A stretch of DNA of 20,777 bases from a virus, in the IMG/VR virus record IMGVR_UViG_3300025009_000403, positions 1 through 20,777 of that record. One strand, written 5' to 3'. Both the position numbers and the translations under genes were made by a program. The notes beneath the pieces are model-generated. The model saw only the letters and a program-made list of their open reading frames with translations. It was not told where the DNA came from and searched no databases. Shown piece by piece: positions 3,000-17,026 of this stretch. Positions within the stretch are counted from its first letter, which is position 1. The number at the start of each line of letters is the position of its first letter.

Positions 3000-3309
3000 T
3001 TTGCTTTCCTTTCGCAGAGGAGATTGCGGTTTCTAGTTCTTCTCGTACGGGCAAGGTTCGGTGCACCAAATCCGTAGTATATGCCAGCATATTTAAGACA
3101 GACAGCGAATGCTTACACGCCTTCAGCAACTCCTGGGCATGGTCGCAGGCGGGATACTTTACTGCCAACTCATCCGCTATTTCACGCTTTGTTTTTGTAA
3201 GTTTCTCATTACAGCAATATCTCAAGCAATCGTGCCATGCCTGACGATAAAGCCCAATGGCCACTTCCTTAAACGGTGTGTCAGTATATTTTTCTGTTTC
3301 CAGTGTCAT
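2992..3309 (-). CDS. Hypothetical protein, paralogue of the gene at 3983-4249
   Basis: Encodes 105 aa starting MTLETEKYTD. The start at 3309 has AAGGAG seven bases upstream in the repeated GGAGCCGGCAAATG cassette; the longer open frame to 3384 lacks a site. The last 60 residues (from CDHAQELL onward) are nearly identical to those of the gene at 3983-4249, with the shared core CKHSLSVLNMLA; the N-terminal halves differ. The shared half is predicted helical. It overlaps the next gene by 8 bases (ATGTCTAA). Function unknown. Confidence 0.7.
   Translation of the reverse strand: MTLETEKYTDTPFKEVAIGLYRQAWHDCLRYCCNEKLTKTKREIADELAVKYPACDHAQELLKACKHSLSVLNMLAYTTDLVHRTLPVREELETAISSAKGKQNV
3027..3157. 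repeat. Direct repeat copy 1 (second copy at 4024-4154)
   Basis: About 131 bases are repeated in the same direction 997 bases further right with roughly a dozen mismatches and no gaps. Both copies encode the 3' half of a small leftward gene, so this is a gene-internal duplication. Confidence 0.85.
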
Positions 3310-3990: not shown

Positions 3991-4249
3991 TTGTCGGCCC
4001 TTTCGGCTGAGCAGAGGCGATGGCGGTTTCTAGTTCTTTTCGTACGGACAAAGTTCGGTGCACCAAATCCATAGTATCCGCCAGCATATTTAAGACAGAC
4101 AGCGAATGTTTACACGCCTCTAGCAACTCCTGGGCATGGTCGCAGAGGGGATATGCATTGGCAATTTGGTTAACTGTTTTGTGCATGCGATAATAAAAAG
4201 GGCCGCCTCTCTTGAAGGTTTCAATTAACGCCTCCCTAAACTGAGTCAT
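3983..4249 (-). CDS. Hypothetical protein, paralogue of the gene at 2992-3309
   Basis: Encodes 88 aa, starting MTQFREALIE at 4249 with GGAG seven bases upstream. From residue 34 on it matches the paralogue almost residue for residue (CDHAQELLEACKHSLSVLNM); the first 33 residues are unrelated. One copy therefore arose by duplication of the 3' half or by recombination onto a different 5' half. It overlaps its downstream neighbour by 8 bases. Confidence 0.7.
   Translation of the reverse strand: MTQFREALIETFKRGGPFYYRMHKTVNQIANAYPLCDHAQELLEACKHSLSVLNMLADTMDLVHRTLSVRKELETAIASAQPKGPTND
4024..4154. repeat. Direct repeat copy 2 (first copy at 3027-3157)
   Basis: Second copy of the 131-base duplication, at a constant offset of 997 bases from the first, roughly 92 percent identical by eye, within the 3' half of a small leftward gene. 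Confidence 0.85.
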
Positions 4250-5229: not shown

Positions 5230-6486
5230 TTACTCCCCTTGGCTGTTTCTTCCTAAATGCTTGGTCAACTGATCTGTCAACTGTTCCGTCCGGTTCTCGA
5301 CATCTTCGACCTGAATATCTACCACTGAGCCAAAATCAAATTCTCCCGATTTGTCGTCGAGTTCCAAGGCTTTTTCCAGCTCGGCGCTCATGGGCAGATA
5401 CTTGCACAGCCGCCTAACCACTGTCTTGCGCCCCATCTCGCTAAAGTGCTGTTTCCAAGGACCATCGGGTGCATTACCCATCTTGCTCATGCCTTGGATA
5501 CGCTTGACATCGGAAACAGTCATCATCTCGATTTGCTTGCTTCCACCTTTTAATCCGGCGACACCATAGAAGGCAATAAATTCCTCTTTGCGGTCTGCAC
5601 CCAGATATGGTTCATGCTCAACCATTGGATTTGTTCCGAATTTGACTGTAAATTTATCCTGAGCATAGACCGGGTGGACCTCGATATAGTCTATCTCATT
5701 AGACCTTCGGGCCAAGTCGATAAGGCCTCGGTAGCCAGGTATGAGCTTACATTCCGTTCCATAGGGTATTAGGTAAGCTGCACCGAGCGTACCCGAACAA
5801 TCCAAGCCCAGCTCAGAGGCTTCCATAAGGGCCTTGCCTATCGACTTCTCATCACATTTGAACAGTTTTGGTGTCTTGGAAAAGGCCACATAAAGAGCCT
5901 TAAACATTCTCTCTGGGGTAATATGCTGCGGGAGCATACCAGCGATACTTTCCCTCATGCCTTCCGCCAGACTTTTCAGATTCTTGAAGTTTTGTATGGG
6001 AGCATCGGGCTTAAAGTGATGTTTGACAATCTGGGTTGCCTGCTTTGGAGATTCTTCAGGGGCTTTTTCTACGGATACTGTTCTGGCGGCTTTCCTAGTT
6101 TGGGGCTTAGGCTTTAGGGCTTCAATCTCCTCATGGCTCAGGCGTGGTGGCTTTGGCACATAGGGGTCTTTGCGGTTCATCGGCGGCATGTCCGCAGGCT
6201 CCCCAAACTCGTCTGTAGGGTCCTCGCCGGCCTCTGCCGCTTGCTCAGCTTGTATAGCGTCATATTCAGCCTTTAGCTCGTCCTCAGTCATTTGATGCCC
6301 AGGCGGGGCCGGGACAAAATCTTCCCGTTCTGACGGTGGCACATCTTGGTCAGGCGGTGGTTCTTGGTCTTCACTAACCGCTAATCTCGCCTTCTGCTCC
6401 TGAAGTTTGGCTTTGGTTTCCGCCGCCTGCGGTTGATTCGAGAAATCGGTCAGGTGCTTCTGTGCTGCTGGGGTACGGCGATACAT
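5230..6486 (-). CDS. recT: RecT-family single-strand annealing protein with a long acidic N-terminal extension
   Basis: RecT proteins anneal complementary single strands made by a partner exonuclease, driving phage recombination and repair. Residues about 165-395 carry the family core: ITPERMFKALYVAFSKTPKL, LGLDCSGTLGAAYLIPYG, LIPGYRGLIDLARRS and the late segment around WKQHFSEMGRKTVVRRLCKY. The preceding 160 residues are Pro/Glu/Asp/Lys-rich and likely disordered, so at 418 aa the protein is well above the usual 270-320. The C-terminal tail is acidic. The start at 6486 has AAAGGAG seven bases upstream. Its exonuclease partner lies upstream at 7301-8239, separated by an HNH gene that looks inserted between the pair. 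Confidence 0.92.
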   Translation of the reverse strand: MYRRTPAAQKHLTDFSNQPQAAETKAKLQEQKARLAVSEDQEPPPDQDVPPSEREDFVPAPPGHQMTEDELKAEYDAIQAEQAAEAGEDPTDEFGEPADMPPMNRKDPYVPKPPRLSHEEIEALKPKPQTRKAARTVSVEKAPEESPKQATQIVKHHFKPDAPIQNFKNLKSLAEGMRESIAGMLPQHITPERMFKALYVAFSKTPKLFKCDEKSIGKALMEASELGLDCSGTLGAAYLIPYGTECKLIPGYRGLIDLARRSNEIDYIEVHPVYAQDKFTVKFGTNPMVEHEPYLGADRKEEFIAFYGVAGLKGGSKQIEMMTVSDVKRIQGMSKMGNAPDGPWKQHFSEMGRKTVVRRLCKYLPMSAELEKALELDDKSGEFDFGSVVDIQVEDVENRTEQLTDQLTKHLGRNSQGE

Positions 6487-6513
6487 GTTTAGCTCCTTTT
6501 ATTATTATGGTCT

Positions 6514-7158
6514 TTATCCAAACAATCGTAATTGACTGGGTATTCTTCCTGATCCTTTTTGTATATTGCATCTTGGGCAGGTTACGGCAACGTTTCGATA
6601 ACTATGTTCGCCACCTTTAGAAAGCGGGATGAGATGGTCTAAATGCCAAGCATCAGATTTCAACTTTTTTCCGCATAAATGGCAACATCCACCATCGCGC
6701 TCAAAAACAATTTTATAATCTACATGTTCAACAGCCACTTTTCTTTTTCGTGCCTGATATTCTATGCAGTACGCTTTTACTTTTTCAGGATTCCTTTGTC
6801 GCCATTTGACGCCGTTAATATATTGCTTTTCACGATTGTTTTTACGCCACTTAGCTGTTTTTATTTTTATTGATTCCCTGTGTGCTTTTGCCCATTTCTC
6901 GTGAGATTGTTTGTATTTTTCCGGATTAGCAGTTGCCCATTTCCTCCAAGAATTCTTGGCTTTTTCAGGATTTTCATTTCTCCATTTAAGGCGTTTTGCC
7001 TTGACGAATTCGGGATTTGCGTGTCTCCATTTAGCACTAAATATGTGTTCGCAATCTTTGCAATAAAAACCAAGACCATCTTTCATAGATCGGTTTTTAT
7101 TAAACGCGTTTATAGGTTTGGTTACATGACATTTTGGACAATGTTTTTCGGCAACCAT
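6514..7158 (-). CDS. HNH endonuclease with zinc finger and NPEK repeats (HNH-1)
   Basis: Encodes 214 aa. An N-terminal zinc finger (C7, C10, C33, C36) is followed by about seven 13-residue units of the type KWRxxNPEKxKA (residues 42-140), then a C-terminal HNH domain with C159, C162, the H172-L-D-H175 active-site motif, N-rich loop and C194, C197. It should be a site-specific nuclease; the basic repeats probably grip DNA. It lies between yqaJ and recT, typical of a free-standing homing gene. The start at 7158 has no AAAGGAG, unlike most genes around it, and lies 23 bases after structured element E1. The open frame upstream of 7158 is the RNA element, not coding. It is closely related to HNH-2 in the HNH domain. 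Confidence 0.88.
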   Translation of the reverse strand: MVAEKHCPKCHVTKPINAFNKNRSMKDGLGFYCKDCEHIFSAKWRHANPEFVKAKRLKWRNENPEKAKNSWRKWATANPEKYKQSHEKWAKAHRESIKIKTAKWRKNNREKQYINGVKWRQRNPEKVKAYCIEYQARKRKVAVEHVDYKIVFERDGGCCHLCGKKLKSDAWHLDHLIPLSKGGEHSYRNVAVTCPRCNIQKGSGRIPSQLRLFG

Positions 7159-7181
7159 ACTATTAAGACTCAATAACAAAA

Positions 7182-7275
7182 GAGGCCCTAGACCGTGGAC
7201 AAGCCTCAGCCGATGAGGTAGGACGGTTTCGGGCCTCGATTTTGTCTGGCAATTAATTCGGCTTTCAGCTTGTCC
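7182..7275 (-). ncRNA. Pseudoknotted leader RNA element E1 upstream of HNH-1
   Basis: On the minus strand, in order: GGACAAGC (7275-7268); a 30-base loop ending CAAAATC; GAGGCCC (7237-7231) and ACCGT (7227-7223); hairpin CCTCA/TGAGG; GCTTGTCC pairing site (7204-7197); ACGGT (7196-7192); GGGCCTC (7188-7182); then TTTTGTTATT. The first strand pairs with a site enclosed by the second stem, so this is an H-type pseudoknot. The outer stem plus U-rich tail looks like an intrinsic terminator or attenuator. The same order and spacing recur at E2, E3 and E4 with unrelated stem sequences. Confidence 0.7.
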
Positions 7276-7283
7276 ATACCTGT

Positions 7284-7311
7284 AAGTTATCATAATGATT
7301 TCATTTGTCAA
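7284..7311 (-). promoter_or_regulatory. Promoter in front of element E1
   Basis: The -35 TTGACA (7311-7306) lies inside the last codons of yqaJ. A 16-base spacer leads to a weak -10 TAACTT (7289-7284). The expected start point falls 1-3 bases before the first pairing strand of E1. Confidence 0.55.
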
Positions 7312-8239
7312 GAGTGTTTTCGGAATTATTTGATGATTTTTCTTGTTCGAGTAACATTTTCTTCAAAGGTTCCGGCAAACCTTTGGGCAATACCCGCAAG
7401 GTGCGTACCGTAGTCGCCTTGACTTCGTAACCTTTGCGGTTTGATTCGAGATAGGTTAAGGCCCCTGATTCGCCCATATCTGCACATTCCGCATCGCCGA
7501 GATAGGACAAGACTTGGGCCTTGAGCGTATCGGCGTATTTTTCTGCATCGCCGGCTAGGGCTTTAGCAGCCTGCCAGTTATCAAAGGTGGTAAATTGTTC
7601 AGGACCAAAGACCACAATTTTATTGGGCGTGCGTATTACCCGCCGGATAAGGTTCAGCGAGGGAATTGAACCTGTCGGCGGTATATCGGGGATAACGTGC
7701 TTCATCCAGAAGTCCTGCGCCGCTTCCAGTAATACGGCGATAAGCTGCTCGTTGCGAGGCACTTGGTACATGCCAAATCCTCTACCACCCAAGAAGGTTG
7801 ATACCCAGCATAGCTCTTGTTCCAAGGCTTTCATGTGTATCTGAGCTTGGCAGATAACCCGGTCCGGCACTTGATCTGTCCCCGTATCGCCCCAGTCCTC
7901 AGTCAAAGGTCCGTATAAACCGGCAGTCTTAGCCTCGACAGGTTGGCCGCTTTCGACCACAATAGCATCAATGGAAGTCCTTATCATCGTACCTTCTATA
8001 GCTCGCCGCTGATTGCGTTTGATTTTGCCAAGCTGTTCCTGGGTATAATTCAGCAAGGCTTCCTCGAATACCGTCCCAGCTTTGGCAGGTTCGCCAATAT
8101 CTTCCTTGACCACCTTGCCGGTCTTTTCTAAAAAGACATCGAAACTGGTTTTGAATTTATCCATGCCAACTAAAGCAGCTACGTCTGAGCTACCAATATA
8201 ATTCTTACGTCTTTCTTTCTCGAAAATTGTGATGGGCAT
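7301..8239 (-). CDS. yqaJ: YqaJ-type viral recombinase exonuclease
   Basis: A PD-(D/E)XK nuclease of the lambda-exonuclease-like fold that digests one DNA strand to feed RecT. Visible motifs: RKNYIGSSDVAALVG (residues 11-25), the conserved GTVFEEALL (E59/E60), SIDAIV (D91), the VEAKTA motif (E102, K104) and the CQAQIHM helix (Q131, Q133). Length of 312 aa is normal. The start at 8239 has AAAGGT seven bases upstream and follows the previous stop by three bases. Its last codons carry the -35 box of the HNH-1 promoter, suggesting that the HNH unit was inserted or has adapted right at its 3' end. Confidence 0.93.
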   Translation of the reverse strand: MPITIFEKERRKNYIGSSDVAALVGMDKFKTSFDVFLEKTGKVVKEDIGEPAKAGTVFEEALLNYTQEQLGKIKRNQRRAIEGTMIRTSIDAIVVESGQPVEAKTAGLYGPLTEDWGDTGTDQVPDRVICQAQIHMKALEQELCWVSTFLGGRGFGMYQVPRNEQLIAVLLEAAQDFWMKHVIPDIPPTGSIPSLNLIRRVIRTPNKIVVFGPEQFTTFDNWQAAKALAGDAEKYADTLKAQVLSYLGDAECADMGESGALTYLESNRKGYEVKATTVRTLRVLPKGLPEPLKKMLLEQEKSSNNSENTLDK

Positions 8240-8242
8240 GGC

Positions 8243-8446
8243 TTACCTTTCAATACTTATTCCCATGAACAGCAGAAAAATAAAAGTAAAGACGATATTA
8301 AATAATCCCATAGAACTAATATAAAACTCTTCTATATTCTCCAAGGTTCCCTCAGTAATCAAGACCACACCAATTATCACAGCGTGGGTGAAACCAAAAG
8401 CTAATAATCCTTTTCCAATGCCTGCAAGTATTCTATTTATGGGCAT
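8243..8446 (-). CDS. Small two-helix membrane protein
   Basis: Encodes 67 aa with two hydrophobic segments (ILAGIGKGLLAFGFTHAVII, about residues 5-29, and LFNIVFTFIFLLFMGI near the C-terminus), separated by an acidic loop. The start at 8446 has AAAGGAG six bases upstream and lies one base after the previous stop; the longer frame to 8482 lies inside the neighbour. Function unknown; small membrane proteins in early operons sometimes affect host entry exclusion, but nothing here proves that. Confidence 0.65.
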   Translation of the reverse strand: MPINRILAGIGKGLLAFGFTHAVIIGVVLITEGTLENIEEFYISSMGLFNIVFTFIFLLFMGISIER

Positions 8447-8447
8447 A

Positions 8448-8732
8448 TCAATCTCCTTTCCTCTCCGCCAACAATGAGCCAATATGTTTATACAAAGACT
8501 CTACCGATAATCGTAATGATTTGTAGCTAACGGAATATGACTTAAGAGATTTTCTGACATATCTCAAGGCTAATTTGGCTTCCGCTTTTGTATGCCAACG
8601 ATATGTTCCTATCGGCCAAGCTGGACTTGGTGTGTCAAAAGCAAGCACGTAAGGTTTTTTGTTCTTACCCTCCTCTCCACCGGATATTTTCCATATACCC
8701 AGGCTAATAATTACAAATTCATCATCAGGCAT
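8448..8732 (-). CDS. Hypothetical protein, 94 aa
   Basis: Acidic start (MPDDEFVIISLGIWKI), a strand-rich first half (PYVLAFDTPSPAWPIGTYRW) and a helical second half with TKAEAKLALRYVRKSL. The layout resembles small phage proteins of mixed alpha/beta type, but no family is recognised. The start at 8732 has AAAGGAG seven bases upstream. The 3' end carries the AAAGGAG of the next gene. Confidence 0.7.
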   Translation of the reverse strand: MPDDEFVIISLGIWKISGGEEGKNKKPYVLAFDTPSPAWPIGTYRWHTKAEAKLALRYVRKSLKSYSVSYKSLRLSVESLYKHIGSLLAERKGD

Positions 8733-8735
8733 TTT

Positions 8736-8902
8736 TAATCTCCTTTCCTAATAGCGAAGCCCTGTGGGTTATGCTCACTTTCTTCGCAGGATCGCTTTGT
8801 AAGGATTGCCGCTTGCAAATCAGTTTTCCTATCGCCTGCTCACGGGTGCATTTGACATAACGCTGACTACCGCTTCCAGTCCCTTTCGGGTTCCACAGGG
8901 CT
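8736..8902 (-). other. Degenerate coding-like stretch bounded by a 10-bp inverted repeat
   Basis: No intact gene is seen in these 167 bases. AGCCCTGTGG (8757-8766) and its perfect complement CCACAGGGCT (8894-8903) lie 127 bases apart, and GTTATG/CATAAC (minus strand) can pair just inside, so a branched RNA could form. One minus-strand frame is protein-like (DLQAAILTKRSCEESEH, then NPQGFAIRKGD) and ends two bases before the next ATG, but it meets TGA and TAG further upstream. It may be a decayed gene, or a shorter peptide starting at a TTG. Confidence 0.4.
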
Positions 8903-9118
8903 TTACTCGTCGCTCATTAATTCAAAACCGTTTGCCAATTTGTCATCTAATGACTGTTTTACCTCTTTATGCTTTTTGCATTTGTGCAGCCGAGGATAAG
9001 ACTTTATACTTGCTCCGGTATTTGGGTTTTTCAATTTTATTCCTCTATTGGTCGGAAATACTAAGGCGAATTGTTCCTCATTGATAAATTCGCCACACTT
9101 TGGACAATAATGCTGCAT
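8903..9118 (-). CDS. Small zinc-ribbon-like hypothetical protein
   Basis: Encodes 71 aa starting MQHYCPKCGEFINEEQ; C5 and C8 form a CPKCG knuckle, and a second C with H residues follows (LHKCKKHKE), so a zinc ribbon is possible. The tail is acidic. The ribosome binding site is weak (GGATGAAAG). It lies just downstream of HNH-2. No function is recognised. Confidence 0.6.
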   Translation of the reverse strand: MQHYCPKCGEFINEEQFALVFPTNRGIKLKNPNTGASIKSYPRLHKCKKHKEVKQSLDDKLANGFELMSDE

Positions 9119-9188
9119 TAATTTGTTCTTTCATCCATGTAATTTTTGACATCTCGCCAATACTTTTCCGTAGATTGCTTTTTTTTAG

Positions 9189-9851
9189 CTATCCAAATAA
9201 GCGAAGTTGACTTGGCAATCTTCCTGGTCCTTTTTGCATATTACATCGTGGACAAGCTACCGCCACATTCCGATAAGAATGTTCGCCGCCCTTTGATAAT
9301 GGGACAATGTGGTCCAGATGCCAGCCATTTATTTTTACTTTCTTCCCACAAAGATGACACCGGCCTTCGTCTCGTCTGAAAAGTATAGTTCTCTCTACCT
9401 TTTCACAGGTTGCCCGTCGTCGCTGTGCGCGGCGCAAAGCAACAGCGGACCGTACTTTATCCGGATTAGCTTTTCGCCAAGCCCGCCAAAGGGCTTTTAT
9501 TCGTTCTGGATGAGCTTTCCGCCAAGCGAGGTTATTGGCTTTCACTTGTTCTGAATTATCTTTTTTCCATTTGGCATAATTTGCTTTCACTTTTTCTGGA
9601 TGAGCTTTTTTCCATTTATTACATGCAACGCTTCGCTTTTCTGGGTGGGCTTTTCGATATTTAGCATCACTTATTCTAGCCTTTTCTGGATTAGCTTTCC
9701 GCCACTTCTTTAGATATTCCGGATGAACTTTTCGCCAGGCAATCGCTGCTGCTTTAACCTTATCCGAATTAGCTTCTCGCCATTTTTTACTCGCAGCCCT
9801 TGACTTGTCAGGATTGTCCGCTACCCATTTTCGTAAGCGCTCAATTGACAT
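9189..9851 (-). CDS. HNH endonuclease with about ten NPEK repeats (HNH-2)
   Basis: Encodes 220 aa. Nearly the whole N-terminal 155 residues consist of 10-13-residue basic units (WRKAHPEKVKA type), then an HNH domain with C165, C168, the H178-L-D-H181 motif and C200, C203, ending QLRLFG exactly as HNH-1 does. It lacks the N-terminal zinc finger of HNH-1 and has more repeats, so the repeat number evidently changes. It is likely a mobile, free-standing site-specific nuclease. The start at 9851 lies 17 bases beyond element E2 and has no strong ribosome binding site, only GAG. The open frame upstream to 9956 is the RNA element. Confidence 0.88.
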   Translation of the reverse strand: MSIERLRKWVADNPDKSRAASKKWREANSDKVKAAAIAWRKVHPEYLKKWRKANPEKARISDAKYRKAHPEKRSVACNKWKKAHPEKVKANYAKWKKDNSEQVKANNLAWRKAHPERIKALWRAWRKANPDKVRSAVALRRAQRRRATCEKVERTILFRRDEGRCHLCGKKVKINGWHLDHIVPLSKGGEHSYRNVAVACPRCNMQKGPGRLPSQLRLFG

Positions 9852-9868
9852 ATCATAACTCAAAAACA

Positions 9869-9972
9869 CTAAGCCCCACGGTTGTGAAAACAATACAGAC
9901 CAGAAGGCGTGTATTACCTTGGGGCTTAGGAAATTTCTTGAGATTGCACGGTCCATACTATTTTCACAACCG
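9869..9972 (-). ncRNA. Pseudoknotted leader RNA element E2 upstream of HNH-2
   Basis: On the minus strand: CGGTTGTGAAAA (9972-9961); 31-base A-rich loop; CTAAGCCCCA (9929-9920); hairpin AATACA/TGTATT; TTTTCACAACCG (9890-9879); immediately TGGGGCTTAG (9878-9869); then TGTTTTTGAG. Both stems are perfect (12 and 10 bp) and interlock as an H-type pseudoknot with no base between the last two strands. A U-run follows, so the 10-bp stem is terminator-like. This is the clearest copy of the family. Confidence 0.8.
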
Positions 9973-9973
9973 T

Positions 9974-10002
9974 AATATAAAAGACTTATTACTCTGTGTC
10001 AA
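9974..10002 (-). promoter_or_regulatory. Promoter in front of element E2
   Basis: TTGACA (10002-9997), a 17-base spacer, then TATATT (9979-9974): a good sigma70 match. The -35 box is inside the last codons of the transglycosylase-like gene, as with E1 and yqaJ. The expected start point falls within the first pairing strand, leaving about 7 bp of that stem. Confidence 0.75.
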
Positions 10003-10504
10003 GAGAATTTAATATTTTTTCTATGTCTTTCCAATAATTCAAAGTACAAGAGTTATAAGGTCCTTTTGGGCCTCCTGCCCAAGCTCGGCTCCAGATTTCG
10101 GGATTGCCTTGCGGATAGTAATGATTCTGGTAAATCTCAAACATTTGGCGGGCCTTAGACGGGCTAAAAGCATCATCATGACTATAGATTTGACGGCCTA
10201 ATATCCGGTTCACATCTGCCACCATAATCGGCCTTATCTGGGCTATCCCCCAAGCCTGCTCCGATTCGTTCACGGCATCGGGCCGGTTGCTTGATTCCTG
10301 CTGACAAATGGCTTGCCATGTTAGTTCAAAATCTAAGACTGGCGGTTCGGCGGTGGCTGTGGGGATAACAGCCGAGGGAGCTTTCCCGCCAGTCTTTATT
10401 TTCGCCGGACTGCTGCGGATTACACGCGGTTCCGACAACAGCCCGGCCACAATGATAAGAGTGCAACCGATAACAATGTAGATGATGATTGCTGTTTTGT
10501 TCAC
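9989..10504 (-). CDS. Membrane-anchored lytic-transglycosylase-like protein
   Basis: Encodes 171 aa from a GTG at 10504 (GTGA overlap with the previous stop); an ATG at 10519 is the alternative. A hydrophobic segment at residues 5-24 (AIIIYIVIGCTLIIVAGLL) is a signal anchor, followed by a Pro/Ala/Lys linker. The domain from about residue 62 has WQAICQQESSNRPDA, where E70 is the expected catalytic glutamate, then AWGIAQIRP and later a YN/WK segment. These fit the SLT/lysozyme-like fold that cleaves peptidoglycan glycan chains. The second half is divergent. Placement in an early operon is unusual; it may help entry or act on the host wall. Confidence 0.65.
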   Translation of the reverse strand: MNKTAIIIYIVIGCTLIIVAGLLSEPRVIRSSPAKIKTGGKAPSAVIPTATAEPPVLDFELTWQAICQQESSNRPDAVNESEQAWGIAQIRPIMVADVNRILGRQIYSHDDAFSPSKARQMFEIYQNHYYPQGNPEIWSRAWAGGPKGPYNSCTLNYWKDIEKILNSLDTE

Positions 10505-10686
10505 GGCCAATCTACCCATCGCTGGATCATGACTTCGACTAAACTTTGACGGGATTGACTATTGTATTCGACCACATCTATCCTCTGCACTTGGCCTATC
10601 TCATCCAGACTGCCGCGCGGCACAGCCTCGTCAAAGAGGTTCAGAATTACATCATCTTCCGGTACTGATAAGTTTAATCTGTTCAT
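10501..10686 (-). CDS. Small acidic hypothetical protein
   Basis: Encodes 61 aa, starting MNRLNLSVPEDDVILNLFDE, acidic in the first half and ending in RWVDWP. The ATG at 10686 has AAAGGTG a few bases upstream; an ATG at 10701 would overlap the alpha-CTD-like gene and has no site. No domain is recognised. Confidence 0.6.
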   Translation of the reverse strand: MNRLNLSVPEDDVILNLFDEAVPRGSLDEIGQVQRIDVVEYNSQSRQSLVEVMIQRWVDWP

Positions 10687-10690
10687 GTTT

Positions 10691-11065
10691 TCACCTTTCA
10701 TTTCGCAGCACCAACCCTAAACGAGCTACGCTGGCTTCGATTATGCCTAACCGAGCCGGTCCGATGTCGCGGATACTTAGCACCTCTTGGCGAGTCAAAT
10801 TGACAAGCTGACACACTCTGTTTATATTGGCCCTTTGTAATTTATAACGTATTACCGGCTGATTAATGATGGGCGAATCATTAAATTTTTCCCATAGTCC
10901 GCGAGAAAGTTTCGTCTGTTCTTCGAGAATAGCAGCTACCAAGTAGAGAGCGAATTCTTGTTTGTTCTTTATCAGGTTATTCGGTGTTAGACATTCTTCG
11001 TTGGAATATCCCCAGCTGTTCTCAATCATATATCGCCCAAGTTGTGCGAAATTAGAGTGGCTCAT
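10691..11065 (-). CDS. Protein with an RNA polymerase alpha-CTD-like domain
   Basis: Encodes 124 aa. Residues about 72-120 (KLQRANINRVCQLVNLTRQE, then VLSIRDIGPARLGIIEASVA and RLGLVL) follow the helix-hairpin-helix pattern of the C-terminal domain of bacterial RNA polymerase alpha subunit: RANIN, then LxxLxxxEL, the I-R-x-I/F-G turn and the LxELGL-like end. In the cell this domain binds promoter UP elements and activators. The first 70 residues are unrelated and helical. It lies directly downstream of an HTH gene, so a role in transcription control is plausible, though HhH folds also bind DNA nonspecifically. The start at 11065 has AAAGGA seven bases upstream. Confidence 0.7.
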   Translation of the reverse strand: MSHSNFAQLGRYMIENSWGYSNEECLTPNNLIKNKQEFALYLVAAILEEQTKLSRGLWEKFNDSPIINQPVIRYKLQRANINRVCQLVNLTRQEVLSIRDIGPARLGIIEASVARLGLVLRNER

Positions 11066-11076
11066 ATTGTTTTCCT

Positions 11077-11277
11077 TTACTCGCTGGGAAATAGATCGTC
11101 TATCGAACAGCCGAACAGATGAGCCAGCCTACGGGCGGCCTCCAGATTCGGCAACGTTTCACCATTTACCCAGCGGCTCATGGTATCTTCGGTTACGTCT
11201 AGTTTTTCAGCCAGCCACTTTTGCTTCAGGCCCCGACTGTCGATCATTTTTTTGAGATTGGTAGGTTGGTCCGACAT
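11077..11277 (-). CDS. Cro/CI-type HTH regulator
   Basis: Encodes 66 aa, a lone HTH_3 domain: LKQKWLAEKLDVTEDTMSRW (residues 17-36) is the helix-turn-helix, then NGETLPNLEAARRLAHLF. It matches Cro-like or XRE repressors that bind inverted operator repeats as dimers. The start at 11277 has AAGGAG eight bases upstream. Right before it lies a promoter framed by a large inverted repeat (11290-11341), the likely operator, so it probably controls its own transcript and that of the genes to its left. Confidence 0.9.
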   Translation of the reverse strand: MSDQPTNLKKMIDSRGLKQKWLAEKLDVTEDTMSRWVNGETLPNLEAARRLAHLFGCSIDDLFPSE

Positions 11278-11289
11278 TATTTGTGCTCC

Positions 11290-11341
11290 TTTTTACCCTT
11301 AGACATCATAACTTCTGTTACTAAGCTGTCAAGGGTAAAAA
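11290..11341 (-). promoter_or_regulatory. Promoter with inverted-repeat operator of the HTH gene
   Basis: On the minus strand TTGACA (11332-11327), a 16-base spacer and TATGAT (11310-11305) form a near-consensus promoter. TTTTTACCCTTAGACA (11290-11305, plus strand) and TTTTTACCCTTGACA (11341-11327, minus strand) are the same motif in opposite orientation; one covers the -35 box and the other begins at the end of the -10 box. A dimer of the adjacent HTH protein bound here would block the promoter. Confidence 0.8.
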
Positions 11342-11361
11342 CAAGATAAATGCAAATTATT

Positions 11362-11679
11362 TTAACTAACATTAACCTCGAACCCCTGTTCCTCGTTGGC
11401 TTGCTCTAACTGCCGGACGGCCTGTATCTTAGCTTCCGCTTTTTCTGCCGCCGCCCGCGCGTCCTGGTCTAGATGCTGGAACACCATTACCTCTTTGCAG
11501 AGATTCCATGCTTCTTGAAAAATCTCCGCCGGGCGTAAATCCAAAACACCGTCAATTAACTCGTTATTTGCCCATCGCCAATAACCATCCATTAGTCGGG
11601 ATAGACGTATTTCGCTTGGCAAGGCAATCACCTCTGAGATACTCAAACCGTGAATGTTTCGATATTCCTCAAAAGTCAT
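11362..11679 (-). CDS. Hypothetical protein with C-terminal coiled coil
   Basis: Encodes 105 aa starting MTFEEYRNIHGLSISEVIAL. The first 60 residues appear globular and helical; residues about 70-95 (ARAAAEKAEAKIQAVRQLEQ) are a coiled coil. The ATG at 11679 has AAAGGAG six bases upstream, so the longer frame to 11718 is rejected. It is the last gene before the HTH promoter. Function unknown. Confidence 0.7.
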   Translation of the reverse strand: MTFEEYRNIHGLSISEVIALPSEIRLSRLMDGYWRWANNELIDGVLDLRPAEIFQEAWNLCKEVMVFQHLDQDARAAAEKAEAKIQAVRQLEQANEEQGFEVNVS

Positions 11680-11788
11680 TTTCAGCTCCTTTATTCCAGA
11701 ATCGTTTCCCCGTTCCATCTTCGGCCATCAGGTCCTTGCGAGCCAAACTTACGACCTTACCATCTTCAGTCAAATGCTTATTTCTCAT
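11669..11788 (-). CDS. 39-aa hypothetical peptide
   Basis: A short frame starting MRNKHLTEDGKVVSLARKDL. It overlaps the upstream stop as ATGA (11785-11788) and the downstream start by 11 bases, and its codons carry the AAAGGAG of the next gene. No ribosome binding site of its own is seen, so it would depend on translational coupling. No domain is recognised. Confidence 0.5.
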   Translation of the reverse strand: MRNKHLTEDGKVVSLARKDLMAEDGTGKRFWNKGAENDF

Positions 11789-12030
11789 AGGCTGCCCATG
11801 AAATCTTTTACATTTATCAAACAATCAATACTCCAAGCCGTATTTTCAAAGGGAATAAAAACCCACTGTTTCCATAAGCCATAATAGGATATTTCTCCCA
11901 ATAAATCCCCTGACCGATTATTGATTAAATCATAAACTGGTCGTGGACACTCCGGGCGGTTGTGTTTTTCTACGCGAAAATATCTATACCGTTTGCTTAT
12001 ACCCGCGAAAGTTGTCTTGTTTATCTTCAA
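11785..12030 (-). CDS. Hypothetical phage protein, 81 aa
   Basis: Starts at a TTG (12030) with AAGGAG eight bases upstream. The second half (GEISYYGLWKQWVFIPFENT, then CLINVKDFM) is a pattern seen in small phage proteins, with an aromatic WKQWVF strand and a terminal helix. Function unknown; the fold looks like a compact alpha/beta unit. Confidence 0.65.
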   Translation of the reverse strand: MKINKTTFAGISKRYRYFRVEKHNRPECPRPVYDLINNRSGDLLGEISYYGLWKQWVFIPFENTAWSIDCLINVKDFMGSL

Positions 12031-12063
12031 TTATTAGCTCCTTCAGGCCCGGTGATACAAGCC

Positions 12064-12465
12064 CTAATCTTCAGTCGGCAGCATAATCGTAATCACTGGC
12101 TCGGCATTGTCGCCTGGCCCGACAAGTAACTTGAAATCATAAACAGATTGGCGACCGGCCCCGGTGATTTTGACCTGGAAAATCACTGTTGATTCATCCA
12201 GTTTACGGCAGTATTTCCGGCTCATCCATAACATATCATGCAGAACACCGGCGAAATCGTTGCCGTGTCGCTTGTTAGCCACTGCCCGCTCCATAATGCC
12301 CCAAACAGCCGCCGTACACGCTATGGGATGTTTATAGTGCTGCTGGCACACTTCTAGCATTTTATCTTGCCCCAGGTCAACCAGGACTCCGTCTTCGATA
12401 GCCCATGCTCGGCTATAAGAGTAAATCGGCCCGCCAAATACTTTTACCGTTTCTGCTGTGTTCAT
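12064..12465 (-). CDS. DUF6573-family protein
   Basis: Encodes 133 aa. The stretch YSYSRAWAIEDGVLVDL near the N-terminus, the AVWGIMERAV helix, VLHDMLWMSRKYCRK and the final strand-rich segment match the small phage-associated DUF6573 family, whose function is unknown. The ATG at 12465 has AGGAG nine bases upstream; the frame to 12513 has none. Length and motifs appear intact. Confidence 0.75.
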   Translation of the reverse strand: MNTAETVKVFGGPIYSYSRAWAIEDGVLVDLGQDKMLEVCQQHYKHPIACTAAVWGIMERAVANKRHGNDFAGVLHDMLWMSRKYCRKLDESTVIFQVKITGAGRQSVYDFKLLVGPGDNAEPVITIMLPTED

Positions 12466-12509
12466 GTTTTGATCTCCTATCCTAAAAGTGATGTTCGATA
12501 CTGCCCGAA

Positions 12510-12928: not shown

Positions 12929-12957
12929 TTGACTTCGTTCAGGATTCCCCTTATCAT
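12929..12957 (+). promoter_or_regulatory. Promoter in front of element E3
   Basis: TTGACT (12929-12934), a 17-base spacer and TATCAT (12952-12957). The expected start point coincides with the first pairing strand of E3 (12964). Confidence 0.75.
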
Positions 12958-12963
12958 ATTGAT

Positions 12964-13061
12964 ATGCAAGCTATCTTTCCGATCCCCTTATACAAAATAT
13001 GCCAAACCTGCGCCAGTGCTATTCCTTCGGGACTATAGCTTGCATCCTGGCCGGGTTTGGC
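12964..13061 (+). ncRNA. Pseudoknotted leader RNA element E3 upstream of HNH-3
   Basis: In order: ATGCAAGCTAT (12964-12974); 26-base loop ending CAAAATAT; GCCAAACC (13001-13008) and GCCAG (13012-13016); a small TTCC/GGGA hairpin; ATAGCTTGCAT (13035-13045); CTGGC (13047-13051) and GGTTTGGC (13054-13061); then TTTATTGATT. The 11-bp and 13-bp stems interlock as a pseudoknot. The HNH-3 ATG lies 19 bases after the last stem. Confidence 0.75.
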
Positions 13062-13080: not shown

Positions 13081-13491
13081 ATGCCTAAAAGATTATCGGC
13101 CCAAGTAAAAACCATAATCTGGCGTGCCGGACCGGATTTTGGCACACTAAAGCTAAAAAGTCTGTATGCACTATCAAAAGACGATCAGGCTGTAATATGG
13201 AGAAGAATTAAGCGATATGAGACTGGCAAAAAATATGTAGCTCGACATAGAGCCTTATATCGTCGGCATTTACCTGTTTTAGACAGGCGAGAGATATATG
13301 CCAGGGGTAAGGGAAAATGCTATTTATGCGGTCAGAAAGTCCTATGCGATAAATGGGAAATGGACCATGTCTGGCCATTGTCTAAAGGTGGAGAACATTC
13401 TTACCGAAATATAAGAGTCGCTTGCTCAAAATGTAATAAACACAAATGGACAAGAATCCCTGTTAATTTTCAGTTTGGTTTGTTTGATTAG
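13081..13491 (+). CDS. HNH endonuclease (HNH-3)
   Basis: Encodes 136 aa. The C-terminal half is an HNH domain with C80, C83, the E-M-D95-H96 motif, the PLSKGGEHSYRN block shared word for word with HNH-1 and HNH-2, and C115, C118. The N-terminal half is basic and helical and lacks NPEK repeats. A frame start at 13057 lies inside element E3, so the ATG at 13081 is chosen; it has no AAAGGAG. It is the first gene on the rightward side, between the leftward promoter and the replication genes, probably a mobile homing-type nuclease. Confidence 0.85.
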   Translation: MPKRLSAQVKTIIWRAGPDFGTLKLKSLYALSKDDQAVIWRRIKRYETGKKYVARHRALYRRHLPVLDRREIYARGKGKCYLCGQKVLCDKWEMDHVWPLSKGGEHSYRNIRVACSKCNKHKWTRIPVNFQFGLFD

Positions 13492-13545: not shown

Positions 13546-13574
13546 TTGACACGCAGGATGAGACCACGTACCAT
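13546..13574 (+). promoter_or_regulatory. Promoter in front of element E4 and the replication genes
   Basis: TTGACA (13546-13551), a 17-base spacer and TACCAT (13569-13574), with the first E4 pairing strand at 13582, where transcription should start. This promoter probably drives the rightward replication operon. Confidence 0.75.
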
Positions 13575-13581
13575 GTCCGTT

Positions 13582-13690
13582 ATGACTCGGATAACGGAAT
13601 ATCACCAATACCGAAAAATGCCAGGCCCGGACAGTCAAACATGCCTTAACCGTATGTCTGAGTCATCTGTTTCGGGCTTGGCCTGTTTTT
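13582..13690 (+). ncRNA. Pseudoknotted leader RNA element E4 upstream of the replication genes
   Basis: In order: ATGACTCGGA (13582-13591); 28-base A-rich loop ending CCGAAAAAT; GCCAGGCCCG (13620-13629); hairpin ACAT/ATGT; TCTGAGTCAT (13657-13666); six bases; CGGGCTTGGC (13673-13682); CTGTTTTT. One G-U pair in each stem suggests RNA rather than DNA pairing. It has the same order and spacing as E1-E3, but the gene 19 bases downstream is not an intact HNH gene. Confidence 0.75.
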
Positions 13691-13701
13691 AGGATCCGAC
13701 T

Positions 13702-13830
13702 ATGACCAATTCAACAACATACCTGCAAAAGCTGAAAGACCCGCGATGGCAGAAGAAAAGATTACAGGCGTCTGAAATTCAACGGTATTTGTTAGATATT
13801 TATCTGAAGGGAGGTAAAAATGCGAATTAG
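13702..13830 (+). CDS. 42-aa peptide resembling the start of an HNH endonuclease
   Basis: Starts MTNSTTYLQKLKDPRWQKKR. The part YLQKLKDPRWQKKRL is the usual opening of a common family of phage HNH nucleases, in which a RD-x-TC zinc motif follows next; here the sequence instead diverges and stops. AGGA lies seven bases upstream, and the end overlaps the next gene by 11 bases and carries its GGGAGG. It is likely a truncated HNH remnant now serving as a leader gene in front of the replication operon, though it might be an unrelated small protein. Confidence 0.55.
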   Translation: MTNSTTYLQKLKDPRWQKKRLQASEIQRYLLDIYLKGGKNAN

Positions 13831-14566
13831 AAGCCTCCGTCCAGAGTTTTGGGCAGGGAAAAGAGTACGTCAACTGTCGCCGTGGGCACGACTTTTACTT
13901 TTAGGTCTCAATAATTACTGTGATGATGAGGGAAGGGGTGAATGGGATGAGGTACTCATCAGGAGCCTAATCTTCCCCAGTAACAAGGTAAAGATCGGTC
14001 TATTATTGACAGAACTGGTACGGGTAGGCTCTATCATAAAGTACGCCGTCAATGACACTTACTATCTAGCTATCCCCAATTGGAAAGATTTGCAATATAT
14101 CCAGAAACCACGTCCCAGTAAATATCCTAATTACGATAGCAGTACGATAGACCTACCGGAATCCTACAATAGCAGTAAATCCCTTCTTTCTGTTAAAGGA
14201 TTGGTTAAAGGAAAGGATAGTATAGTAATGGGGTCGGATTATGGTAATCCTCCTGTACCGACCTACTTAGTTTTCGATAGTTGCCAAGCTGTCAGACTAA
14301 CACAGACCGACTATGACTGGCTGTTAGCAAAACATACTAAAATCGCCATAGACGAAATGATATTGGAGCTGGAGGACTATCTGCTACAGCATCCCAAAGA
14401 AGTTAAAACCAGAAACCATAAACTCACCATCAATAACTGGCTTACCAGGCGAATCCGGGAAGCCAAGGCTCTACCAACCAGGCTAACCGTCGAACAGGAC
14501 GCAGCAGCAATAACCGAAAGACTCGAACAACGTGATAAACTCAAAAAGGCAGGGAAAATACTATGA
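13820..14566 (+). CDS. Phage replication initiation / replisome organizer protein
   Basis: Encodes 248 aa. The N-terminal 100 residues begin MRIRSLRPEFWAGKRVRQLS and continue ARLLLLGLNNYCDDEGRGEW, the standard winged-helix start of phage replication initiators. A polar linker follows. The C-terminal part (LTQTDYDWLLAKHTKIAIDE, then LELEDYLLQHP and INNWLTRRIREA) matches the conserved domain seen in DnaB-loading primosome proteins, with the NWL/RR end. It probably binds the phage origin and recruits helicase. The start at 13820 has GGGAGG with good spacing. The downstream gene overlaps by ATGA. Confidence 0.78.
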   Translation: MRIRSLRPEFWAGKRVRQLSPWARLLLLGLNNYCDDEGRGEWDEVLIRSLIFPSNKVKIGLLLTELVRVGSIIKYAVNDTYYLAIPNWKDLQYIQKPRPSKYPNYDSSTIDLPESYNSSKSLLSVKGLVKGKDSIVMGSDYGNPPVPTYLVFDSCQAVRLTQTDYDWLLAKHTKIAIDEMILELEDYLLQHPKEVKTRNHKLTINNWLTRRIREAKALPTRLTVEQDAAAITERLEQRDKLKKAGKIL

Positions 14567-16296: not shown

Positions 16297-16606
16297 CCAC
16301 TGCACAGGCCCTATAGACTGCCTATCTTACCCAAACCCTCCAGCTTACCAAATACTAAAGCATGCTTTCCCAGCCGAGGCCCCCCCCCACCCCCAGGTTT
16401 GCGGCCCCCGACTTGCATCATAGTACCCCCTCCGTGGAAATTTTGGGGGATTTTTGGGAAATAGATGTTTAGTAGTCTTAGCATTGGTACTACGATTGCT
16501 GTAGGCTGTCCAGGATTGCGTAGGATGAAACAATATTCTTGACAAGGCGGATGGGGGACCACTTACCATAAAATAATCGTTTATAGGCCAAAATTAGGAG
16601 TTTTAG
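16297..16606. other. 310-base non-coding gap with G/C homopolymer tracts and an inverted repeat
   Basis: No gene is seen on either strand. Notable contents: a run of nine C, an A and five C (16380-16394) followed by GGCCCCCG; TAGTACC (16421-16427) and GGTACTA (16486-16492) inside a longer imperfect inverted repeat; GGGGG tracts at 16445-16449 and 16552-16556; and a promoter near the right end. On the minus strand the G-tracts at 16380-16409 could form a G-quadruplex. It might hold an origin, a packaging signal or an insertion boundary; nothing decides this. Confidence 0.5.
16539..16569 (+). promoter_or_regulatory. Possible promoter of HNH-4
   Basis: TTGACA (16539-16544) and TACCAT (16564-16569), with a long 19-base spacer. 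Unlike E1-E4, no pseudoknot lies between this promoter and the gene. Confidence 0.4.
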
Positions 16607-17026
16607 ATGTTAAAAAGACGGGATGAATTTCCAGGTATAGATTTTACAATAGGCTTACCGAAATGTGTAATGTGCCATTCGTACATTTCGACATCCACTA
16701 AAATCCGTAGGCCAGGGCAGAAATACTGTTCGGACAAATGCCGAGGCGAGGCAGCCAGATTTCGCCGTAAAATTTCGCCTGCTAAAGAACCGGCATATTT
16801 ATCTTTGCGATTTAACATACTTGCCAGAGACAATTTTACATGCCAATATTGCGGAAAAACACCTCAAGACGGAGCAAAACTCGTTGTTGACCATATAAAT
16901 CCACAAAGCAATGGTGGTAAATCTATAGAAACCAACCTTGTAACGGCTTGCCAGGAATGTAACGGCGGCAAAAAAGACATTTTATTGACAGAAAGACAGT
17001 CTCGCAAGTTAAGATTAGGCAAATAA
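16607..17026 (+). CDS. HNH endonuclease of a different family (HNH-4)
   Basis: Encodes 139 aa. An N-terminal zinc finger (C20, C23, C41, C45) is followed by an HNH domain of the common type: RDNFTCQYCG (C79, C82), VVDHINPQSNGG (D95, H96), N110 and C115, C118. It is not closely related to HNH-1, -2 and -3, having a different block after the catalytic histidine. AGGAG lies six bases before the ATG, unlike the other three. It is likely a free-standing homing-type nuclease or a packaging-linked HNH protein; its place shortly before the late module and terminase allows either. Confidence 0.85.
   Translation: MLKRRDEFPGIDFTIGLPKCVMCHSYISTSTKIRRPGQKYCSDKCRGEAARFRRKISPAKEPAYLSLRFNILARDNFTCQYCGKTPQDGAKLVVDHINPQSNGGKSIETNLVTACQECNGGKKDILLTERQSRKLRLGK

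Follow-up and report, generated by a model that had tools for sequence, protein, structure and literature searches.

Leader-peptide attenuators of the trp and macrolide-resistance types consist of a promoter, a short leader frame, competing helices of which the last is terminator-like, and a structural gene, and HEARO and OMEGA RNAs are structured RNAs located beside HNH-containing genes. Selfish endonucleases must stay low and yet not be lost. T4-type phages keep their endonucleases low through the choice of promoter and through hairpins that cover the ribosome site, and T4 segA, segG, mobC and mobD have promoters within the 3' part of the preceding gene (PMC2988022). In the present analysis, four leaders were found in viral DNA of 20,777 nucleotides (nt) (IMG/VR record IMGVR_UViG_3300025009_000403, positions 1-20,777; the window hereafter means this whole stretch), three of them directly ahead of free-standing HNH endonuclease genes. 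The recurring unit would join a promoter to an endonuclease gene of this kind through a leader of about 120 nt that is folded and probably translated. We consider it an evenly balanced proposition that the reading frame near +1 overlaps an attenuator-like RNA and that its translation gates the downstream gene.

Crossing leaders in the window and in other viral contigs

The window leaders E1, E2, E3 and E5 share a length of 116-121 nt, a sigma70-type promoter and an RTG codon (ATG or GTG) at about +1. Two helices, A and B, cross each other with their strands in the order A1-B1-A2-B2 in similar register, followed by a T-rich tail and then by the gene. Counted from the seventh base after the -10 box, A1, B1, A2 and B2 start at 2/41/74/90 in E1, -6/39/67/90 in E2 and 1/38/72/89 in E3. 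This anatomy (promoters, helices, register, reading frames and adjacency to HNH genes) is well supported.

On the minus strand, the E1 -35 box TTGACA (7306-7311) is separated by a spacer of 16 from its best -10, TAACTT (7284-7289), which is weak (3/6; promoter 9/12 overall). The E1 leader frame (7206-7277) opens with an ATG at about +1, reads MDKLKAELIARQNRGPKPSYLIG and stops just before A2; helix A pairs TGGACAAGC (7268-7276) with GCTTGTCCA (7196-7204), and helix B pairs GAGGCCC (7231-7237) with GGGCCTC (7182-7188), after which comes TTTTGTTATT. E2, also on the minus strand, has the stronger promoter (TTGACA at 9997-10002, spacer 17, TATATT at 9974-9979; 11/12). The 5' strand of its helix A (9950-9974, 25 nt) overlaps the -10 box by one base and pairs with 9877-9901, and helix B joins CTAAGCCCCA (9920-9929) to TGGGGCTTAG (9869-9878), followed by TGTTTTTGAG. 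On the plus strand, E3 has the promoter TTGACT-17-TATCAT (12929-12957) with no same-strand gene just upstream, and its leader (12964-13061) carries the frame MQAIFPIPLYKICQTCASAIPSGL (12964-13038, stop included) and the strands A1 12964-12974, B1 13001-13010, A2 13035-13045 and B2 13052-13061, then TTTATTGATT. The E5 leader (13582-13692, plus strand) follows the promoter TTGACA-17-TACCAT (13546-13574), contains a 36-codon frame from ATG 13582, and places A1 at 13582-13593, B1 at 13620-13631, A2 at 13655-13666 and B2 at 13671-13682, then CTGTTTTTAG.

Outside the window, a general detector applied to the regions upstream of 119 distinct HNH-like open reading frames (ORFs) pointed to the leader L014 (IMGVR 3300025030_000184), and L144 (3300033153_003840) was recognised as a further leader before the fixed-rule scan. 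The strict rules required a promoter of at least 9/12, a spacer of 16-18, crossing helices and at least five T in the 8 nt after B2. The first strict run (1.29 Mb) gave six distinct leaders, i.e., E1, E2, E3, L014, L144 and the new E5, with none in reversed sequence; the second (1.73 Mb) added L211 (3300022874_000129) and L195, with one match of score 21.0 in reversed sequence. In the final run (245 records, 1.87 Mb, 1.52 million distinct 31-mers), eight matches scored at least 22, as against none in reversed sequence. Dinucleotide-shuffled loci (212.7 Mb) yielded 33 matches at this score, two at 26 or more and none at 28 or more; the null expectation in 1.87 Mb at a score of at least 22 is about 0.29 versus the eight found, an approximately 27-fold excess. 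Scores above 28 were obtained for E2 (39.9), L211 (31.5), L014 (29.4) and E5 (28.4). Looser rules gave L176b, from the same virus as L014, and L116 (3300017593_000873), whose helix A was weak in the scanner and was re-read from the sequence as a 13-base-pair helix. The total came to nine leaders, four in the window and five in four other viral contigs. A search of bacterial genomes with an HNH alignment retrieved general HNH genes, among which the strict rules detected no leader; additional HNH loci collected via the L211 and L116 proteins provided no new strict member, and blastn of the L014 leader region against phage records gave no match.

Crossing helices are present in all nine leaders, and each helix is stable singly (A, -7.5 to -35.7 kcal/mol; B, -13.7 to -26.5 kcal/mol), with fold z-scores of the leaders from -1.6 to -9.3. 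The quality of the following T-tract is mixed, being good in L014, L144, E5 and L211. At E up to 5, no Rfam match overlapped any of the window leaders. A Pfam HNH match stands directly behind seven of the nine (E1, E2, E3, L014, L144, L211 and L116), a share that applies to a sample of loci collected for their HNH genes. L176b precedes a DnaD-like helicase loader (PHROG 2514, 8e-35), and E5 precedes a 42-amino-acid frame (13702-13830, plus strand) and then a replication initiation gene (13820-14566, plus strand; PHROG 1408, 2.5e-27). The 42-amino-acid frame presumably resembles a truncated HNH protein, a likeness to which the searches lent no support, and it was rejected as a proven HNH remnant.

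The window HNH genes themselves are free-standing HNH endonuclease genes of a known kind. HNH1 (6514-7158, minus strand, 214 amino acids) follows E1 and lies between yqaJ and recT (5230-6486, minus strand); HNH2 (9189-9851, minus strand, 220 amino acids) follows E2; HNH3 (13081-13491, plus strand, 136 amino acids from ATG 13081) follows E3 and matches PF14279 and PF01844 on the frame from 13057. The HNH nuclease domain PF01844 was found in Pfam with E-values of 3.8e-12, 2.6e-13 and 2.3e-10, respectively, and the three proteins had no Pfam match outside the HNH families. A comparison with the Rfam introns at E up to 5 gave no match, in keeping with genes that lie outside an intron. HNH4 (16607; region 16539-17026) has TTGACA at 16539, 68 nt upstream, and was rejected as a member for want of a crossing leader. 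The window also contains a 143-nt direct repeat (3014-3156 and 4011-4153, 91% identical). Two further related contigs, L074 (98.2%) and L075 (99.6%), share with the window only the sequence that begins at 11715 and extends to the right, E3 and E5 included; to the left of 11715 they differ, and they end before any E1 or E2 site.

Leader reading frames and the proposed attenuator

In seven of the nine leaders an ATG is found 4-7 nt past the -10 box, versus 28 of 197 other promoters of at least 10/12 in the same loci. E2 has a GTG at 6 and an ATG at 17 nt after the -10 box, and L116 a GTG at 5 and an ATG at 12. RTG frames of 13-48 codons were found near +1 in eight of the nine. Frames of 36-48 codons end 8-10 nt before the next start in E5 (9 nt from ATG 13702), L014, L116 and L176b, and the L211 frame, which belongs to the same length group, overlaps the next start by 8. 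A second kind of frame ends 42-47 nt before the next start, at A2, in E1 and E3, and in L144 only for its ATG at offset 0. The HNH2 frame is open from ATG 9956, which makes the E2 leader readable in frame with HNH2 (255 amino acids). The positions at which the frames end relative to the next start and to A2 suggest that the leaders are translated.

We infer the transcription start, translation, termination and switching from the sequence as follows. The transcript would start at, or a few bases from, an RTG codon. Helix A would pair the 5' end with A2, just ahead of B2, and helix B would pair B1 with B2, which together with the T-rich stretch resembles an intrinsic terminator. When no ribosome occupies the 5' RTG, A1:A2 would bury the codon, B1:B2 would form, and transcription would tend to stop before the endonuclease gene. 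A ribosome on the leader frame would break these pairings and let the polymerase pass, and, often finishing within 10 nt of the endonuclease start, it could hand over to that gene. More tentatively, the nine leaders may represent a portable phage RNA module not described before, in which a near-leaderless short frame is set in a crossing (pseudoknot-type) attenuator that serves several HNH subfamilies as well as replication genes, nucleases and replication being released only upon active translation from the 5' codon.

Several observations weigh against the attenuator. The T-tracts of E1-E3 and L116 are interrupted, and that of L176b is poor (TGCGTTCT). E1 is the weakest leader, with its poor -10 and a fold z-score of -1.6, and its score of 22.6 compares with 22.8 for one random window of the same phage. 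Close behind a promoter, an ATG is no rarity here (14% of the other promoters of these loci). The offset-4 ATG of L144 gives only 2 codons, while its 27-codon frame starts at offset 0, probably ahead of the transcript; for E2, the frame from the RTG near +1 is 13 codons long and the long frame begins 11 nt later. Leader peptides compared by eye had no obvious similarity, sequence identity from leader to leader is low, and the nine are too unlike to be aligned for the usual covariation analysis. The strict rules were written after E1-E3, L014 and L144 had been seen, which leaves E5 and L211 as the only blind finds, and one of the eight strict matches, L195, was rejected as a member and is probably due to chance, having poor boxes and an outlying register. 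Furthermore, few of the 119 distinct HNH-like ORFs show the leader, and most sampled HNH genes lack it.

The main rival of the attenuator is a body in which A and B coexist, the leader being a pseudoknot or small RNA that acts as one folded unit, for example a protein-binding operator for HNH autorepression; we regard this as possible though unlikely, and the data fit either. The two helices can in principle coexist, with an A2-B2 gap of -2 to 10 nt and long loops elsewhere, and crossing pairs are also present in a second, compact HNH leader. There are precedents among T4-type phages: the I-TevI protein of T4 represses the promoter from which it is expressed, and regulatory hairpins occur in several endonuclease messages (PMC2988022). 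On the other side, five of the nine leaders have leader-spanning frames that stop at the next start, which would be unexpected of a plain RNA. It is likewise doubtful, in our estimate, that the leader generally heads phage operons and that HNH genes merely happen to follow it: E5 and L176b do precede replication initiation genes, whereas seven of the nine directly precede HNH genes, albeit in loci chosen for HNH. Another arrangement, in which B does no more than end transcription of the upstream gene and A is a DNA operator or a chance pairing, would accommodate the B helices with T-rich tails that closely follow an upstream gene in several cases and the operator-like overlap of E2 helix A with the promoter, yet it is improbable given that E3 and L211 have the same layout with no same-strand upstream gene found and that strict crossing matches exceed the shuffled null about 27-fold (8 versus 0.29).

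The -35 boxes of E1 and E2 inside the upstream genes

The earlier note on this DNA had located the -35 boxes of E1 and E2 within the final codons of yqaJ (RecE-like exonuclease; 7301-8239, minus strand) and of the transglycosylase-like SLT-domain gene (9989-10519, minus strand), and had proposed that an inserted HNH unit including the -35 box replaced the original 3' ends. The minus-strand sequence bears out the location: yqaJ ends GAA AAC ACT CTT GAC AAA TGA (ENTLDK) and the SLT gene AAT TCT CTT GAC ACA GAG TAA (NSLDTE), each with TTGACA inside its last codons, and translation confirms that the NTLDK and NSLDTE endings come from CTT GAC read in frame. That both boxes are promoters is borne out only in part: E2 scores well (TTGACA-17-TATATT, 11/12), and E1 has no good -10. 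A general promoter scan of 5500-12500 gave 15 sites versus 11.6 +/- 3.6 in shuffles, so that one listed site alone carries little weight, and E1 was absent from it. TTGACA itself is frequent in the window (20 copies versus 10.4 expected; 0 of 100 shuffles reach 20). The 9-mer CTCTTGACA is common to both gene ends and has no other copy in the window.

Leu-Asp as a mark of common origin was rejected, as an in-frame CTTGACA suffices to produce it. Depending on frame, CTTGACA can read Leu-Asp, Leu-Thr or a stop; L116 likewise reads it as Leu-Asp (ending GLDNDEQMW), and in L144 the stop of the preceding gene is the TGA within TTGACT. The common reading frame of the two boxes is thus weak evidence for a shared history. 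Hence a caution for annotation: the same last residues in unrelated phage genes can be an in-frame -35 box.

The -35 box does appear to belong to the HNH unit, as the earlier note had supposed, the layout from -35 to the downstream start (151-174 nt across the nine leaders) being similar and the upstream flanks differing. From the -35 to the start of the leader frame there are about 35 nt (about 46 in L116 and for the long frame of E2), and tight gene packing thereby pushes the box into the final codons of the gene ahead. If the attenuator is real, such a leader would explain why the promoter reaches into the gene ahead.

Replacement of the 3' ends, by contrast, is not supported, and we consider it very unlikely. 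In its favour, both genes finish in one 9-mer unique to them in the window, the -35 is the leading edge of a recurring unit, and HNH1 occupies a junction at which its neighbours nearly touch elsewhere: the RecE-like gene and recT are spaced by 44 nt in phage Cafasso, 3 nt in TripleJ and 5 nt in ThulaThula, and HNH1 was therefore likely inserted between them. Against it, the upstream stop lies at varying offsets from the -35 start (E1 +8, E2 +11, L116 +23, L144 +1, L014 -14, L176b -6 or +20 for two possible frames, E5 -57; no same-strand upstream gene stop was found for E3 and L211), leaving no fixed insertion border, and the upstream flanks of the other leaders differ. The T4 promoters within upstream genes offer a parallel that needs no replacement.

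The earlier note had proposed alignment with phages lacking the HNH unit as a check, and the gene ends could be aligned for the SLT gene only. Two of its nine matching phage records were aligned. The homologue of Cellulophaga phage Calle_1 ends KVREKLDSRIN, aligned to IEKILNSLDTE of the window (30% identity, one alignment), with the bases CTAGACA at the place of CTTGACA, and the next gene, which starts 14 nt past the stop, is annotated as a hypothetical protein and not as HNH. For E2 this comes near to the outcome that, by the earlier note, would refute replacement, namely an HNH-free homologue ending in Leu-Asp with the same bases; the second homologue, from Mel-JY01, ends differently and without Leu-Asp. 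The Leu-Asp of E2 may well be native, with the -35 having arisen inside it. For yqaJ, 222 phage records matched, all below 60% identity and 10 covering at least 80% of the query; the tails of Cafasso, TripleJ and ThulaThula were unalignable with the last approximately 20 residues of the window protein. IMGVR 3300025117_000200, the one close relative to cover E1 and E2 (99.9% across the region), carries both units and so marks no insertion border; searches of viral contigs with yqaJ and the SLT gene gave only this near-identical relative and no empty site, and the 4.2-kb region had no blastn match among phage records. In the 5' part of the SLT gene (10506/10507), the match to this relative breaks and resumes with a short offset, a small polymorphism.

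Comparison with other HNH leaders and known systems

A second, compact leader precedes other HNH genes (L143:952-1041, L147:2384-2473, L150:1160-1247, L152:2414-2497 and L155:2086-2175). It has a GTCG..CGAC helix near the transcript start and two hairpins, and one hairpin loop pairs with the ribosome-site region just ahead of the start codon; loop and partner co-vary, with pairs kept in 7/7, 7/7, 6/7, 6/6 and 7/7. Upstream of two other HNH genes of the L014 virus (L135:2501 and L134:5146), a promoter is followed by a short leaderless frame that extends as far as the HNH gene and, translated by eye, reads as a zinc-ribbon-like protein of 41 residues. No Rfam match at E up to 1 was found in L143, L144, L147, L150, L152, L155, L134 or L135. 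The window leaders resemble HEARO and OMEGA RNAs in that a structured RNA adjoins an HNH gene, and differ in having no Rfam match and in preceding genes (HNH1-HNH3) whose Pfam matches are confined to HNH families.

With attenuators of the trp and macrolide-resistance types the window leaders share a short frame between the promoter and a terminator-like helix. Unlike in those systems, the frame opens at about +1 and has no ribosome site ahead of it, and the helices cross instead of forming the 1:2, 2:3 and 3:4 alternatives.

The free-standing endonucleases of T4-type phages (seg, mob) offer the closest genetic setting, and the part of the published account drawn on here (PMC2988022) places them likewise between phage genes, with RNA hairpins that hold expression down and, in mobE and segF, terminators at the 5' end. 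Their structures are hairpins hiding the ribosome site or terminators in the coding region, unlike the crossing leader, and their promoters are middle or late as opposed to sigma70-like; that part of the account (PMC2988022) mentions no pair of crossing helices accompanied by a 5' reading frame. In the open-licence literature, as judged by titles and the beginnings of abstracts, no such leader at HNH genes was described. Regulated leaders of free-standing HNH genes are known in the form of T4-type hairpins and terminators, and the crossing leader with a 5' frame appears to be a new form in the literature covered. If its proposed function holds, a leader combining a 5' frame with an attenuator-like fold would be another solution to endonuclease control, carried inside the mobile unit itself.

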